Assembly: GCF_019665765.1 (NCBI RefSeq) | Contig: NZ_CP081150.1 | Span: forward strand, 1,984,001-2,048,000 | Reading direction: 5' to 3' | DNA from: Deefgea tanakiae | GTDB lineage: Bacteria > Pseudomonadota > Gammaproteobacteria > Burkholderiales > Chitinibacteraceae | DNA: 64,000 nucleotides | In this document: positions 38,408 through 44,667 of the stretch, piece after piece | Layout of the letters: every line of letters starts with the position of its first letter | Numbering within the stretch: the stretch's first letter is position 1 | Notes under the pieces: model-generated | What the model was told of the DNA's origin: nothing | Database searches by the model: none | What the model saw: only the letters and a program-made list of their open reading frames with translations | Made by a program: the position numbers and the translations under genes

Positions 38408-39022
38408 TTAAGCTTTTGGCTTCTCATCCGCAACCGCCTGCTTCACGCTGGCAATCCCATGCTGAACCTGTTCACCTGCTTTACTGGCAAGTTCAGCCGC
38501 CTTCACTTTCGCTTGATCACTTAATTCTGCAACTTGAATCAGCGCTTGATCTGCTGCATGGCCAGCTTTATCGGCTAGTTCTGATGTTTTCAATGCCGCT
38601 TCATCGGCCAAAATTTCAGCCTTGCCCACAACGTTAGCCGCAGCATCCTTGGTTGCATCCCATGCTTGATCAGCAGCGACCGTGGCTTTATCGCTCAGTT
38701 CACCGGCTTTGAGTGCTGCATCATCAGCTACTTGGCCCACTTTATCTGCAATTTCTGCCGCTTTCCAAGCGGCCTGATCGGCCAACAGCTCTGCTTTTTC
38801 AGCTAACTCAGCAGACTTTTCCTTCACCGACTCCAAAGCGTGATCAGCAGCAATCGTCGCTTCATCACCCAATTGGGCAGCTTTAAAGGCCACTTGATCA
38901 GCAACTTGACCGGCTTTATCTGCTAAATCCGCCGCTTTGGCAGAAGCGCGCTCCGCCGCCGCCTCCACGGTTTGCTCCGCAGAGCCCAATAGCTCTTTGA
39001 CTTTGTCGAAAATACCAGTCAT
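38408..39022 (-). CDS. Repetitive amphipathic-helix protein, LEA/apolipoprotein-like
   Basis: 204 residues from the ATG at 39022, which has AAGGAG 6 bases upstream. After MTGIFDKVKELLG the whole chain is an alanine- and charge-rich helix with an 11-residue rhythm (A-x-L-A-D-K-A..). On top of this a 58-residue unit occurs about 2.4 times: units begin at ADKAGQVADQ, ADKVGQVADD and ADKAGHAADQ. No signal peptide or membrane segment. Group 3 LEA-like and phasin-like proteins look like this; a role in stress protection or surface coating of lipid or PHA granules is possible but not shown. phaC is 17 kb away. Confidence 0.75.
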   Translation of the reverse strand: MTGIFDKVKELLGSAEQTVEAAAERASAKAADLADKAGQVADQVAFKAAQLGDEATIAADHALESVKEKSAELAEKAELLADQAAWKAAEIADKVGQVADDAALKAGELSDKATVAADQAWDATKDAAANVVGKAEILADEAALKTSELADKAGHAADQALIQVAELSDQAKVKAAELASKAGEQVQHGIASVKQAVADEKPKA

Positions 39023-39406
39023 TGAATACTCCTTTAGATTGAGAGACAAACAATACACTAACAGTTTATTGCGGATTCTGATCAACTCATCCAAGCCCTC
39101 TGATTAGCTGTCGCCAAATATAGAGATTCGGATTGCTCAACGGAGTGAGCTATGTGTAGGGCAAAAGATAAATTTAATTTTTCAACCGCAAATTAAGTTC
39201 AACTTAGGCTCTTAAGCGAATCCTCCGTATTAAATCGTTTGCCTATTGATTTGAAAGCAAAAATATCGATGTTTTAGACTCCAACATTTTGCCATTTGAC
39301 ATAATCGAAGATAGTCGTACTCAGTTCCGCCGACTCGAAACTCTGCCGTGGGACCTTCCGCACTTTCCCAACAGCTTGCGCCAAGGCAAACACGAATGCT
39401 GGCGCT
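39023..39406. other. Intergenic region upstream of the LEA-like gene
   Basis: About 380 bases. Holds the promoter of the minus-strand LEA-like gene and perhaps of the next plus-strand ORF. A minus-strand frame across 39274-39480 has no ribosome binding site and was not accepted. Nothing else seen. Confidence 0.5.
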
Positions 39407-39942: not shown

Positions 39943-41256
39943 TCAACTACTGATTTCTTCATTACTTGGTGTTGCGTCAGTTTTCTTGATGGCTAAGATT
40001 TTATCGATTCGTCGACCATCCATATCCACCACTTCAAGTTGCCAATCTTCCCACACGGCAATATCGCCCGTGCGCGGCATTTGCCCGAGGATAAACATCA
40101 CCAAACCGCTGAGTGTATGGTAGCTATGCTTGGCTTCATCGGGTACGGATTGCAAATCCAAGCGATCTTTAAGTTCGGGGATTGGGATTAAGCCATCGAG
40201 CAGCCATGAGCCATCGGCGCGCTGAATCGCCCAAGCATCCGCACCGTCTTGTGGCGTAAATTCGCCCGTCAAGACTTCGAGCACATCTTGTAAAGTCACC
40301 AAACCTTGCACTTCGCCGTATTCATCGATCAAAAAGACCATTTCTACGCCGGAAGTGCGCATCTGCGCGAGCAACTCCAGACCAGTCAGACTTTCAGGCA
40401 CAAATACGCAAGGCTGTAGATGGCTGGATAGGTCAATTTCTTCGCCTTTAAGCATTTTTTGCAAAATGTCTTTGGCACTTAAAATCCCCAGCAAATTATC
40501 TAGACCATCGCGGCAAACAGGAAAGCGTGAAAACGGCGTATTCGATACTTTGGCTAAGTTGTCGGCTACCGAATCATCTAAATCCAGCACGACCATGTCG
40601 GAGCGTGGGATCATCAATGAAGTCACGAGGCGATCATCCAAACGCAGTACGTTTTTCATCATCGCGTGCTCGTGCTCTTCGATCAAACCGGCTTCTGATC
40701 CCTCGTGCAACATCGCGTCAATTTCGTCTTGCGTCACCGCTTGTTGTGTCGTTTGATCTGCACCGAGCAAACTGAGTACGCCCTTAGTCGATGCGGTGAG
40801 TAAGCGAACAAATGGACGTGTCATCAGTGCTAACAATTGCAGTGGTCGCGCAACAAATACGGCGATGGTTTCAGGGCTAATTTGTCCTAAGCGCTTTGGT
40901 ACCAACTCGCCCAGCACAATCGAAAAATAAGTCACAGAAACGACCACACAGACTGTCGCGCTGGTGTCGCTCATGCTTTCAGGCAATCCAAAGGTCATCA
41001 ACCAGTCGGCAAAAGGCTCGGCCAAAACAGACTCACCGACAATACCGCTCAGTACACCAATCGAAGTAATCCCAATTTGTACCGTGGACATGAACTTAGT
41101 CGGATCAGCGCCTAATTCCAAGGCCACTGCGGCGCCCTTATTTCCTGCTTCAGCCATTTTGGTCAGCCGTGCTTTGCGCGCGCTCACCAAGGCCAACTCC
41201 GACATCGCAAACAGGCCATTGAGTAAAATCAGCCCGAGCAGTAAGAACACTTCCAT
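39943..41256 (-). CDS. CNNM/CBS-domain transporter of the CorC/hemolysin-like family
   Basis: 437 residues. CNNM (DUF21) membrane domain with helices near 1-20, 55-80, 98-120 and 130-150, a tandem CBS pair (about 205-335, including MIPRSDMVVLDLDD and FLIDEYGEVQGLVTLQDVLEVLTGE), and a C-terminal CorC/HlyC transporter-associated domain (about 345-425). These proteins handle magnesium or sodium efflux and protect against high Mg or Co. It ends the minus-strand region left of the piuC repeat array... reading leftward the array lies upstream of it. Confidence 0.9.
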   Translation of the reverse strand: MEVFLLLGLILLNGLFAMSELALVSARKARLTKMAEAGNKGAAVALELGADPTKFMSTVQIGITSIGVLSGIVGESVLAEPFADWLMTFGLPESMSDTSATVCVVVSVTYFSIVLGELVPKRLGQISPETIAVFVARPLQLLALMTRPFVRLLTASTKGVLSLLGADQTTQQAVTQDEIDAMLHEGSEAGLIEEHEHAMMKNVLRLDDRLVTSLMIPRSDMVVLDLDDSVADNLAKVSNTPFSRFPVCRDGLDNLLGILSAKDILQKMLKGEEIDLSSHLQPCVFVPESLTGLELLAQMRTSGVEMVFLIDEYGEVQGLVTLQDVLEVLTGEFTPQDGADAWAIQRADGSWLLDGLIPIPELKDRLDLQSVPDEAKHSYHTLSGLVMFILGQMPRTGDIAVWEDWQLEVVDMDGRRIDKILAIKKTDATPSNEEISS

Positions 41257-41342
41257 GAAATCATCCGACGTATTAATGAAACATCAATATCAGGCCATTG
41301 CGCTATTTTGCAAGTTTATCAACGACTTCATTGAAGAATTAA

Positions 41343-41505
41343 TTAAATGTCGCCCCATTTGCGCAATAAATTATGATGTATGCCCGTCATTGAAATTGCG
41401 GTGGCATTGTCGCCATAATCGGCGCGCAGTTGGCGAATATTCGTATCAAGTTCAAACAGCAACCCTCTTTCACTGCCATCTATTAACCTTACTCGGCCAT
41501 CCACA
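41343..41505 (-). pseudogene. Remnant of a second piuC-like gene 3' end (unit 1)
   Basis: Encodes in one frame about 50 residues matching the PiuC C-terminus ([12 protein letters not shown].., ending KWGD plus a stop TAA) but with no start codon or upstream domain. Its end region differs from resident piuC at many bases, so it probably derives from a diverged paralogue rather than a recent copy. Confidence 0.75.
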
Positions 41506-41668
41506 TCAAATATCGCCCCATTTACGAAGCAAATTATGATAGATACCCGTCATAGATATTGCAGTGGCATTGTCGCCATAATCAGCGCGCAGTTGGCGAA
41601 TATTCGTATCAAGTTCAAACAGCAACCCTCTTTCACTGCCATCTATTAACCTTACTCGGCCATCCACA
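41506..41668 (-). pseudogene. Hybrid remnant of piuC 3' end (unit 2)
   Basis: Same C-terminal coding segment. The part coding for the last 27 or so residues and the stop (TGA) is nearly identical to piuC, while the preceding part matches unit 1. It directly abuts the piuC stop codon. Because the period is 163, each unit is shifted one frame from its neighbour, so there is no read-through fusion. Confidence 0.75.
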
Positions 41669-42349
41669 TCAAATATCGCCCCATTTACGAAGCAAATTAT
41701 GATAAATACCCGTCATAGATATTGCAGTGGCATTGTCGCCATAATCGGCGCGCAGTTGGCGGATATTGGTATCGAGTTCAAATAACAAACCACGCTCGGC
41801 GCCGTCCTTAATCATACTTTGCATCCACATAAACGACGCAACCCTTGTACCGCGCGTGATTGGTTCGACACGGTGCAAGCTGCTGGATGGGTATAAAACC
41901 ATATCACCGGCGGCGAGTTTGACCTCGTGCACGCCATAAGTATCTTCAATGACCAATTCTCCACCATCGTATTCCGCCGGATCAGAAAAAAACAGTGTCG
42001 CGGATAAATCCGAGCGTACCCATTCGCCAGTATCAGTCATACGACGCATCGCATTATCAACATGCATGCCAAAGCCCATCCCCACGCCATAGCGATTAAA
42101 TAAAGGTGGAAAGATTTTTTTGGGCAACGCGGCCGAAAAAAACAAGTCATTTTTGGCCAGCGCCGCCAAAATCACTTCGCGCACCGCAACAGCGTTCACT
42201 TCATCATTGGGCAACTGTTCATTATTTTTAACTTTGGCCGATTGACTCCCTGCTGTGATACGACCATCGAGCCATGCCGCACGATCCAGCTTTTCACGAC
42301 ACGCGACTACGGTTGCAGCATCGAGTACCGCAGGAATATGTAACAACAT
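41669..42349 (-). CDS. piuC: Fe(II)/2-oxoglutarate-dependent hydroxylase PiuC
   Basis: 226 residues from the ATG at 42349, which has GGAG 5 bases upstream; this is the family length. PKHD-type dioxygenase with the iron triad H96-x-D98 (GMHVDNA) and H159 (LHRVEP) and the 2-oxoglutarate arginine R169. PiuC genes commonly accompany TonB-dependent siderophore receptors, as here with the Fiu-like receptor just upstream; its precise substrate is not established. The gene's 3' end is the template of the tandem array that follows it. Confidence 0.93.
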
Positions 42350-42368
42350 AAAAACTCCAAATAATAAT

Positions 42369-42393
42369 GGGGTATTCACATATGGAATACCCC
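42369..42393 (-). terminator. Hairpin between the receptor gene and piuC
   Basis: Perfect 9-bp stem GGGGTATTC / GAATACCCC, 7-base loop, followed on the minus strand by the AT-rich ATTATTATTT. Weak tail; may attenuate rather than stop transcription into piuC, whose ribosome binding site follows within 15 bases. Confidence 0.6.
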
Positions 42394-42435
42394 AATCGAT
42401 GGTTACAAGTAAATACCCATCATTAATCTACAAAA

Positions 42436-44667
42436 TTAGAACTTGTACGATGCCGTCACACGAGCAGTCCGCGTAGTGCCTGGCACAGCAAAGCCTGCGT
42501 AAAGACCTTCATAGTATTCAGTATCAAACAAATTAAGAACATTGAGCTGGACACTCAAATCACGGTGCGTCCATTCAACCATCGCATCCCAACGCACATA
42601 ACTTGGCAAGAACACCGTATTGTCCAAGCTGGTGTAACGTTTGCCCATCGCATTCATACCGCCACCCACTTTCCAATTGCCATCGACTTGATAAGTCGTC
42701 CACAAATTGCCGGTGTACGTTGGCGAATTGTCTGGGCGATTGCCTTCTTGATATTTGCGTGCTGGATTAGCCACTTCATCAATCACTGGATCCATCAGCG
42801 CAAGGCCAGCAAAGACTTGCCATTTGTCGCTCAAACGACCTGCTGCTTCGAGTTCAATACCATCGGTATGGCGTTTGCCCGACAACAAGTATGGTTTCAC
42901 CACGCCCGGTTCGATATCGGTTTGACGCTCATTGGTTTTTTCCGTACGGAACACTGCCGTGCGCAAGGCCAAATCGCCATCCAGCAAAGTCCAACGTGCG
43001 CCGATTTCGTAGTTCGCGTTTTTCTCTGGATCAGTCAAAGCACCTTTTGGATCAGTTGAATACGCTTCAGCAGAAGGATTGAACGACGTACCATACGACA
43101 CATAATACGATTGCACTTGATCAGGCTGATAGATCAAACCTGTGCGGTAGCTCCACACTTTGTCCGTACGGCTCACATTATCGGCGGCTTTTTGCTTGGT
43201 GAACGATAGATTCTCGGTGCTGGCTTTAAAGTTATCGTATCGAGCGCCCAACAACACTTTCCAATGCGGATTCAAGTCAATCATGTCTTGGAAGTAGAAA
43301 GCCACGGTATCCGCTGTCGAATCAGCGGTCACGGTATTCACTGGATCGCTACAATTGCTTGGTACACCACCTGTGACCGGGTTGCCCACCGTGGTTGATG
43401 GCAAATTGCACCCCGCCAAGCCTGTCGTTGAACTTGGAAGCACTTTACCTGTTGTATCCAATTGCATACGGCCTGTGCTCAGTAACTTCTCGCGAGTTAA
43501 TTCAATACCAGCCAGCACATTGTGGCGAACCGTACCCGTTTCGAAATCCCACAAGAAATCTGTTACGTTGGAGTAGATTTCTTGTTCACGCATGCGCAAT
43601 TTACGACCACGAGTCACCGTCGTGCTGTCGGTCAATGCATCTGTTGGCTTGGCAAAAGACAAACCTGGTGCGCTGGCGCGTAAGTCCAAATCATACTTAC
43701 CAGCCCGAGTTGAGTTTTTGATTTTCATATTCGGGTTGATTTGATGCTCAACACGCAAACTCAATACATCGGCTTGTGTTTCTTCAGAGTCAAAATCTTT
43801 TAGGCCATAGAAAGTATCGACGCGATCAATGGGTTGATTGGTTCCTTGATTGAGCGGCGTTTTACGATAGTAAGGCACGCCGTAATCCGGCACATTGTCT
43901 TCTTGGTAATGCAAATACGAGGCCGTGATTTGTGTTGGTTCGCCCAAACCCCAAGTGATACTTGGTGCAACGCCCCACCGATTCATTTCTGCGCCTTCGC
44001 GGAAACTATCGGCTTTTTGACCCATCACATTGATACGTGCCGCGGTGCTTTCACCAATAGCGCGATTGAAATCACCTTCAACACGGTAAAACGAATCCAT
44101 GCCGATGGTTGTTGAAAGCTGATTCAAATCACCACGGAATGGCGTTTTGCTCACTTGATTGACCACACCACCTGTCGAACCACGACCAAACATCATCGAC
44201 GCAGGGCCACGCAAGACTTCAACGGTATCAATATGGAATGTATCGCGATTATATTGTGCAGAATCACGGAAATTATCTAAGTAGAGGTCATTCGATGCAC
44301 CAAAACCACGAATACGGATGCCGTCACCACTAGCGCCACCTTCGGCAGCGTTAAATGTCACGCCGACTGCATTACGCAGCGCTTCTTTCAGCGTATTGGC
44401 ATCTTGGTCATTCATCAATTGGCGCGTCACACTCGTCACCGATTGCGGAATATCCCGCGCGTCTTGCTCAACGCGACCGACATGCACCGTTGGTGCTTTG
44501 AAGGTATTCACTGTGCCATTGCGGCTTTGAGGATTTTCTGCACTCACTTCAACGGGCGCTAATACGGTCTCGGCCGCATTCACACCACCTGCTACCGCGC
44601 CAAATAAGGCGGCAGCAGCCGGTAATTTCGCAAAATGGCGGATGCCTGACTTGTGTTTATCTCGCAT
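42436..44667 (-). CDS. TonB-dependent catecholate siderophore receptor, Fiu-like
   Basis: 743 residues. Signal peptide (about 1-31, ending VNA), a TonB-box-like VLAPVEVSA segment, plug domain (about 60-175, with DIPQSVTSVTRQLMNDQ, IRIRGFGASNDLYLDNFRD and VEVLRGPASMMFGRGSTGGVVN) and a 22-strand barrel ending in F (VTASYKF). Plug motifs match the Fiu/PiuA group that takes up Fe-catecholate breakdown products such as dihydroxybenzoylserine. Downstream piuC and upstream exbD place it in one iron-uptake cluster. A terminator separates it from exbD, so it likely has its own promoter; no clear Fur box was found there. Confidence 0.92.
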   Translation of the reverse strand: MRDKHKSGIRHFAKLPAAAALFGAVAGGVNAAETVLAPVEVSAENPQSRNGTVNTFKAPTVHVGRVEQDARDIPQSVTSVTRQLMNDQDANTLKEALRNAVGVTFNAAEGGASGDGIRIRGFGASNDLYLDNFRDSAQYNRDTFHIDTVEVLRGPASMMFGRGSTGGVVNQVSKTPFRGDLNQLSTTIGMDSFYRVEGDFNRAIGESTAARINVMGQKADSFREGAEMNRWGVAPSITWGLGEPTQITASYLHYQEDNVPDYGVPYYRKTPLNQGTNQPIDRVDTFYGLKDFDSEETQADVLSLRVEHQINPNMKIKNSTRAGKYDLDLRASAPGLSFAKPTDALTDSTTVTRGRKLRMREQEIYSNVTDFLWDFETGTVRHNVLAGIELTREKLLSTGRMQLDTTGKVLPSSTTGLAGCNLPSTTVGNPVTGGVPSNCSDPVNTVTADSTADTVAFYFQDMIDLNPHWKVLLGARYDNFKASTENLSFTKQKAADNVSRTDKVWSYRTGLIYQPDQVQSYYVSYGTSFNPSAEAYSTDPKGALTDPEKNANYEIGARWTLLDGDLALRTAVFRTEKTNERQTDIEPGVVKPYLLSGKRHTDGIELEAAGRLSDKWQVFAGLALMDPVIDEVANPARKYQEGNRPDNSPTYTGNLWTTYQVDGNWKVGGGMNAMGKRYTSLDNTVFLPSYVRWDAMVEWTHRDLSVQLNVLNLFDTEYYEGLYAGFAVPGTTRTARVTASYKF

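Follow-up and report, generated by a model that had tools for sequence, protein, structure and literature searches.

Why does the end of a hydroxylase gene occur three times in a row, and why do the extra copies still resemble coding sequence? We addressed these questions for piuC, an iron-uptake enzyme gene, of the freshwater bacterium Deefgea tanakiae, referred to here as the window species, in a stretch of 64,000 nucleotides (the window) and in the corresponding loci of related genomes. Two readings had to be weighed above all: that the extra copies are translated as small proteins, or that they are untranslated and are renewed by recombination with the gene.

The piuC gene and its repeated end

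The window contained an intact piuC (Table 1), in whose product the Pfam domains 2OG-FeII_Oxy_3 (residues 94-186) and PKHD_C (194-235) were found, and which matched the PiuC-type chains 9qn1, 9qn0, 9ghl and 3dkq by sequence. As the orthologues of G002 and G004-G006 aligned only from residue 10, and Met-11 was invariant in the PiuC alignment, the true start is probably Met-11, at 42349. The order of receptor gene, piuC and a further gene, which we take to be CorC/HlyC-like, was kept in the Deefgea loci compared, with the receptor gene partial in G002 and G005. A terminator-like hairpin of 10 pairs (42368-42394) overlapped the listed GTG start of piuC (42379). It is suggested in PMC12004947 that PiuC/YbiX homologues act on the substrate of the adjacent receptor.

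Table 1. Positions of piuC, its repeat units and adjoining features in the window.
Feature	Position	Strand	Basis or remark
piuC, PKHD-type Fe(II)/2-oxoglutarate hydroxylase, intact	41669..42379	-	ORF, 236 aa counted from GTG
Unit A, last 163 bp of piuC itself	41668..41830	-	Repeat-family comparison
Unit B, hybrid copy	41505..41667	-	Frame from GTG 41667 to TGA 41506-41508, 53 codons, complete PKHD_C
Unit C, second extra copy	41342..41504	-	Frame from GTG 41504 to TAA 41343-41345, 53 codons
Junction A/B, 31 nt, gene end with TGA and short linker into B	41644..41674	-	
Junction B/C	41481..41511	-	31/31 bases identical to junction A/B
Zone where the match of B changes from C to A	41563..41599	-	Putative crossover or conversion end point
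Downstream spacer up to next gene	41257..41341	-	

Repeat comparison and Tandem Repeats Finder both confirmed what a preliminary description of this DNA had reported, namely three tandem 163-bp copies with stop codons 163 bases apart. The units abutted directly, with start-to-start spacings of 163 (A-B) and 163 (B-C), and their stop codons in gene order were TGA, TGA and TAA. Tandem Repeats Finder returned a single 163-bp array with a score of 764, the other four rows of the window scoring 40-45, and the array occurred once in the window genome (3.56 Mb, one contig). Over 163 columns, 132 were identical between A and B, 122 between A and C, and 150 between B and C. Because the units differed by 8-25% and a homologous array was present in a separately assembled species, an assembly artefact is very unlikely. 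No RNA element of Rfam was matched across 41000-42800 at E up to 1. Downstream of the array, 41257-41344 matched the D. chitinilytica spacer in 65 of 89 aligned columns (mean of shuffles, 46). Elsewhere in the window, an Ala-rich ORF (38408-39094) had an internal periodicity of 174 bp at 38549-38938, with 68% identity.

The repeated segment corresponded to PKHD_C (PF18331), the C-terminal two-helix hairpin of PKHD-type hydroxylases, with 66.2 bits for unit B and 60.1 bits for unit C. In the alignment, the Tyr of YHNLLR was nearly invariant, and unit C had His in its place. When unit B was modelled alone, helices were formed at 10-30 and 34-50, with a mean pLDDT of 86 and block pLDDT above 90 in the helices. 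The best Foldseek matches of this model were to the corresponding hairpin of the PiuC-type structures 9ghl, 9qn0, 9qn4 and 3dkq (rmsd 0.9-1.4 A), at E values of 0.003-0.03, none being below 0.001, as expected at 53 residues. In the model of full-length PiuC the hairpin came after the last strand of the catalytic core (179-188), and the copied segment began inside that strand. The unit is a whole domain, and it is predicted to fold alone.

Distribution and origin of the array

One full piuC was present in all seven Deefgea genomes, and a second full copy in none of the seven. Extra tail pieces occurred in two of them, the window genome (G000) and Deefgea rivuli DSM 18356 (G003), and a single piuC end was found in D. 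chitinilytica (G001), D. salmonis (G004), an uncultured Deefgea (G006), G002 and G005. In an order-wide sample, piuC was matched in 129 of 399 genomes, with adjoining C-terminal pieces in the window genome and D. rivuli; these two were the only Deefgea listed there, and at the threshold used (E up to 1e-6) short pieces in distant genomes could escape. A class-wide sample gave PKHD_C in 107 of 369 genomes and neighbouring copies only in the window genome, while four other genomes with two PKHD_C matches carried them on different contigs. No second tail motif was found up to 1.2 kb downstream of piuC in 39 of the 41 loci examined; the two excluded loci were the D. rivuli array itself (L029) and a partial match (L055), and four loci offered less than 1.2 kb.

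Self-comparison of 20 stretches of the window genome (400 kb of 3.56 Mb) for direct repeats of at least 60 bp within 3 kb yielded seven pairs in four stretches. One close tandem was an intergenic 125-bp repeat, two further pairs came from its third copy, and no tRNA genes lay in the remaining four (L083, L084, L090); within this 400-kb sample, no further tandem repeat of a gene end was recognised. The 125-bp direct repeat formed a tandem pair of 94% identity at G000:C1:286043-286293 (L073 6043-6293), and its third copy, ca. 2.5 kb off (L073 3582-3700), was 76-79% identical.

Integrative elements that restore the 3' end of a gene are known, and the units could be attachment-site remnants of such an element targeting the 3' end of piuC. 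However, the array was without a match in phage or plasmid collections, the units abutted with nothing between the copies, and in the seven Deefgea loci the last piuC end or unit was closely followed by the next gene, leaving no room for an element. An origin of this kind is scarcely credible.

The array of D. rivuli also comprised three units, with a period of 162 and TGA after A and B. It had been proposed that no fusion protein results since 163 is not a multiple of three. This applied to the window species, whereas in D. rivuli the period is a multiple of three, and TGA still separated the units despite the in-frame period. In D. rivuli unit C the last four residues and the stop were replaced or lost, and the frame ran into the spacer (L029 4877-5090) with a stop just before the next gene. 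Unit spacing was constant within each array, and all four extra units kept an open frame. Between the two species, 17-18 of the first 20 bases of the junctions matched. The shared junction included TGA where five single-copy piuC genes have TAA, as well as bases absent from the gene's own segment.

This common junction indicated an old in-place duplication. The preliminary description had instead derived the array from the 3' end of a diverged paralogue beside piuC, an origin opposed both by the shared junction and by the absence of a second intact piuC from all seven Deefgea genomes. The duplicated piece would have comprised some 161 nt at the 3' end of piuC, beginning immediately ahead of the Trp codon in MWM and reaching to the stop.

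Trees of rpoC (unrooted) and of the receptor grouped the window species with D. chitinilytica, with 100% and 99% support, respectively. Rooted with Chitinibacter and Chitinilyticum, the piuC tree contained the same pair (91), with D. rivuli next (89). In the corC tree, which included Chitinibacter, D. rivuli clustered with the other four genomes (97), without a pairing of the window species with D. chitinilytica (63). D. rivuli was placed differently by the corC and piuC trees, and the conflict may reflect recombination in the region. With the branching order of piuC, a single gain and a single loss (in D. chitinilytica) are enough; that of corC calls for at least one further loss or for transfer of the array. 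As judged from these sequences, the likeliest course is a single in-place duplication in a common ancestor of the window species and D. rivuli, followed by loss of the array in D. chitinilytica at least. A single origin is not certain, as five of the seven Deefgea genomes were without the array and the corC tree conflicted; two separate origins sharing their end points are less likely.

Exchange between the copies and the gene end

The middle copy had been described as a hybrid such as unequal crossover would make, and base-by-base alignment, in which divergence was non-uniform along the units, bore this out. B was identical to C across the first 83 columns, and from column 70 on it differed from A at only two columns. 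Within the 135-nt coding body, the 13 sites at which B equalled C and not A all lay at 2-44, and the 10 sites at which A equalled B and not C all lay at 80-131, so that the two classes were perfectly separated (p = 1.7e-6). Given this separation, unit B is a hybrid of a C-like upstream half and a piuC-like downstream half. The hybrid was of the form that an unequal crossover or a conversion tract within the conserved centre of the unit would produce.

In D. rivuli, there were 12 sites at which A and C shared a base that B lacked, among them all six sites that varied in codons 0-19. Six residues differed between the gene tails of the window species and D. rivuli, and each extra unit carried the residues typical of its species, apart from position 2 (A in the window-species gene, S in B and C, and G in D. 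rivuli) and the replaced end of D. rivuli C. Sequence exchange between the copies and the gene end was evident in both species.

Exchange of this kind could by itself account for the coding appearance of the array, if an untranslated array were renewed by recombination with functional piuC ends through unequal crossover, gene conversion, or import of such ends from relatives by transformation. Each unit would then have been a real gene end for most of its history, so that only the synonymous changes of the gene would show. The A-like downstream half of B and the agreement of A and C in D. rivuli, which made the exchange clear in both species, argued for renewal, as did the finding that the units of each species shared that species' own residues.

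Coding constraint on the extra copies

The tails encoded by A, B and C had the same 45 residues except for one or two. In the window species, amino-acid changes over nucleotide differences were 1/15 (A-B), 1/12 (B-C) and 2/24 (A-C); in D. rivuli, where C was compared over its first 41 codons with the replaced end omitted, they were 1/16, 1/16 and 0/8. Under neutral simulation, means of approximately 8-16 amino-acid changes were expected (5-6 for D. rivuli A-C), and P was at most 2.5e-4 for every pair and every transition bias tried. The synonymous-only pattern held for the B-C pairs too, in which neither copy is the gene. Most variable sites were third codon positions, no indels occurred in the compared bodies, and pairwise dN/dS within genomes was 0-0.05.

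Such near-identity bore directly on the proposal that the array is a reservoir for switching the PiuC C-terminus, in which the diverged 3' end of a second piuC lay beside the gene and unequal crossover made the hybrid. The hybrid was real, but the seven Deefgea genomes held no second full piuC, and switching among tails that differ by one or two residues would change almost nothing. The proposal did not stand up to these findings, and we consider it highly improbable. Silent-cassette switching of gene ends is a known class of system, and the piuC array resembled it in having partial copies that recombine beside an expressed-type gene. In contrast, the piuC units encode almost the same peptide, and there is nothing to switch.

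A two-rate codon model gave lnL of -582.7 with the array branches at dN/dS 1 and -557.4 at the rate of the gene (2dlnL ca. 50), and fixing the array dN/dS at 0.1 cost 3 lnL units. Neutrality was rejected for each species separately, with 2dlnL of ca. 19 (window species) and 29 (D. rivuli); the alternative topology gave ca. 32. Array dN/dS was estimated at 0.019 overall, 0.045 in the window species and 0.012 in D. rivuli, values that are rough because the optimiser had not fully converged: two "free" fits fell short of the nested "same" fit by 0.1 and 0.4 lnL. The model covered nine of 11 sequences (the near-duplicates G004 and G006 were omitted), with codons 41-44 of D. rivuli C set to missing. 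The two half-unit topologies were chosen from the mosaic pattern; the tests assume these trees, and the alignment is short, at 45 codons.

Strict polarisation assigned six synonymous changes to one nonsynonymous to the B lineage (P 0.008) and six to two to the C lineage (P 0.022), B and C sharing most changes; the ratios were three to one for D. rivuli B, which was not significant (P 0.12), and three to none for D. rivuli C (P 0.04), all of these being small counts with many sites ambiguous. One nonsynonymous change in each of the polarised B and C lineages belonged to a two-base change between Arg codons that left the residue as it was. Codon usage did not separate translation from import, the gene of G002 scoring as low as units B and C. 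The extra copies appeared to be under coding constraint as strong as that of the gene, which may be borrowed through recombination. Neutral debris was excluded, provided that the units evolved in place, by the codon model and the simulation, both of which rejected neutrality.

Another reading takes the units as left-over tails. The piuC of a relative would have replaced the resident gene, the 3' end of the resident would have remained as C, and a later unequal crossover would have produced B, all of it recent and untranslated. Both the synonymous-only divergence and the A-hybrid-C order of the window species would be accounted for. However, to explain the junction match with D. rivuli (17-18 of 20 bases), either identical end points must have been used on two occasions or the array must have passed from one species to another; no close donor was present among the seven Deefgea genomes, and some changes polarised to the unit lineages, where they were mostly synonymous. 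We regard left-over tails as improbable.

Renewal by recombination met a different difficulty. D. rivuli B differed from A along its whole length, by 15 synonymous differences and one nonsynonymous (dS ca. 0.76), and the 5' half of B and C in the window species held codons, such as AGA and ACG, that none of the seven genomes had at those positions of its gene copy. Had the units been renewed from A, both the whole-length divergence of D. rivuli B and the unique codons of B and C would have disappeared, and renewal would need recent import, in both species, from unsampled donors with the right residues. It is still a serious contender, at somewhat less than even odds. Because the unexchanged parts, D. 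rivuli B and the 5' half of B and C, were nearly without replacements, we lean towards translation, to which we give a rough probability of 0.4-0.46.

Possible translation of the units as PKHD_C microproteins

In the reading that we prefer, re-initiation of translation would yield a free PKHD_C microprotein from each unit. A unit would act as a small cistron, and ribosomes finishing the preceding unit would restart at once, at a GTG that follows the TGA by one base (window species) or at an ATG that follows it by 15 bases (D. rivuli). The products would be free PKHD_C hairpins of about 48-53 residues. Our guess is that they would most likely bind PiuC or join its assembly, replacing its own hairpin or lying beside it, and so tune the enzyme. 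More tentatively, the two Deefgea species may make free PKHD_C hairpins from tandem mini-cistrons by termination-reinitiation, and thereby set the assembly or activity of the enzyme in trans.

Several findings stood against translation. By eye, no strong Shine-Dalgarno sequence stood at a suitable distance from the GTG of the window species, and the window species and D. rivuli differed in the frame of a unit with respect to the stop before it. Unit C looked damaged in both species, with His for Tyr in one and the replaced end in the other. Recombination with the gene end was evident in both, and the constraint could be borrowed. Apart from this, units B and C each contained an out-of-frame ATG, with AAGG seven bases upstream, opening a frame of 30 codons (MAVKEG...; 41550-41642 and 41387-41479). 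Since the constraint sits in the PKHD_C frame, these frames are probably due to chance, despite their better-looking start context.

Relation to known systems and significance

Tandem partial gene duplication with concerted evolution or unequal crossover is a phenomenon of a general kind. The piuC array is similar in its head-to-tail segment copies, its mosaic middle, and the species-specific residues common to the copies of one genome; it differs in that only a terminal domain was copied, in separate frames past a stop, with coding constraint of the strength seen in the gene. The small subunit of type I-C Cascade is reportedly made from an internal start in a larger gene. In comparison with the non-canonical small subunits of PMC7684278, the likeness would be a C-terminal helical piece possibly made apart from its parent, which is putative here; the piuC array consists of separate downstream copies and not of an internal start, and no sequence relation is claimed. 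The intact gene, its Pfam domains and the neighbouring receptor resembled those of the PiuC/YbiX (CciO) hydroxylases beside a TonB-dependent receptor, as described in PMC12004947, whereas neighbouring PKHD_C units were found nowhere outside Deefgea in the screens run. Among the literature matches listed, no title or abstract opening reported such an array of piuC tails.

Short partial gene copies are usually dismissed as debris. Here, one terminal domain was found copied in two species, which share the junction, and the copies showed gene-like constraint. If the units are untranslated, recombination alone would keep debris looking coding, a warning for small-gene calls based on dN/dS. If they are translated, the array would represent a simple route from a domain to a separate microprotein, and annotation would miss such fragment-like copies.
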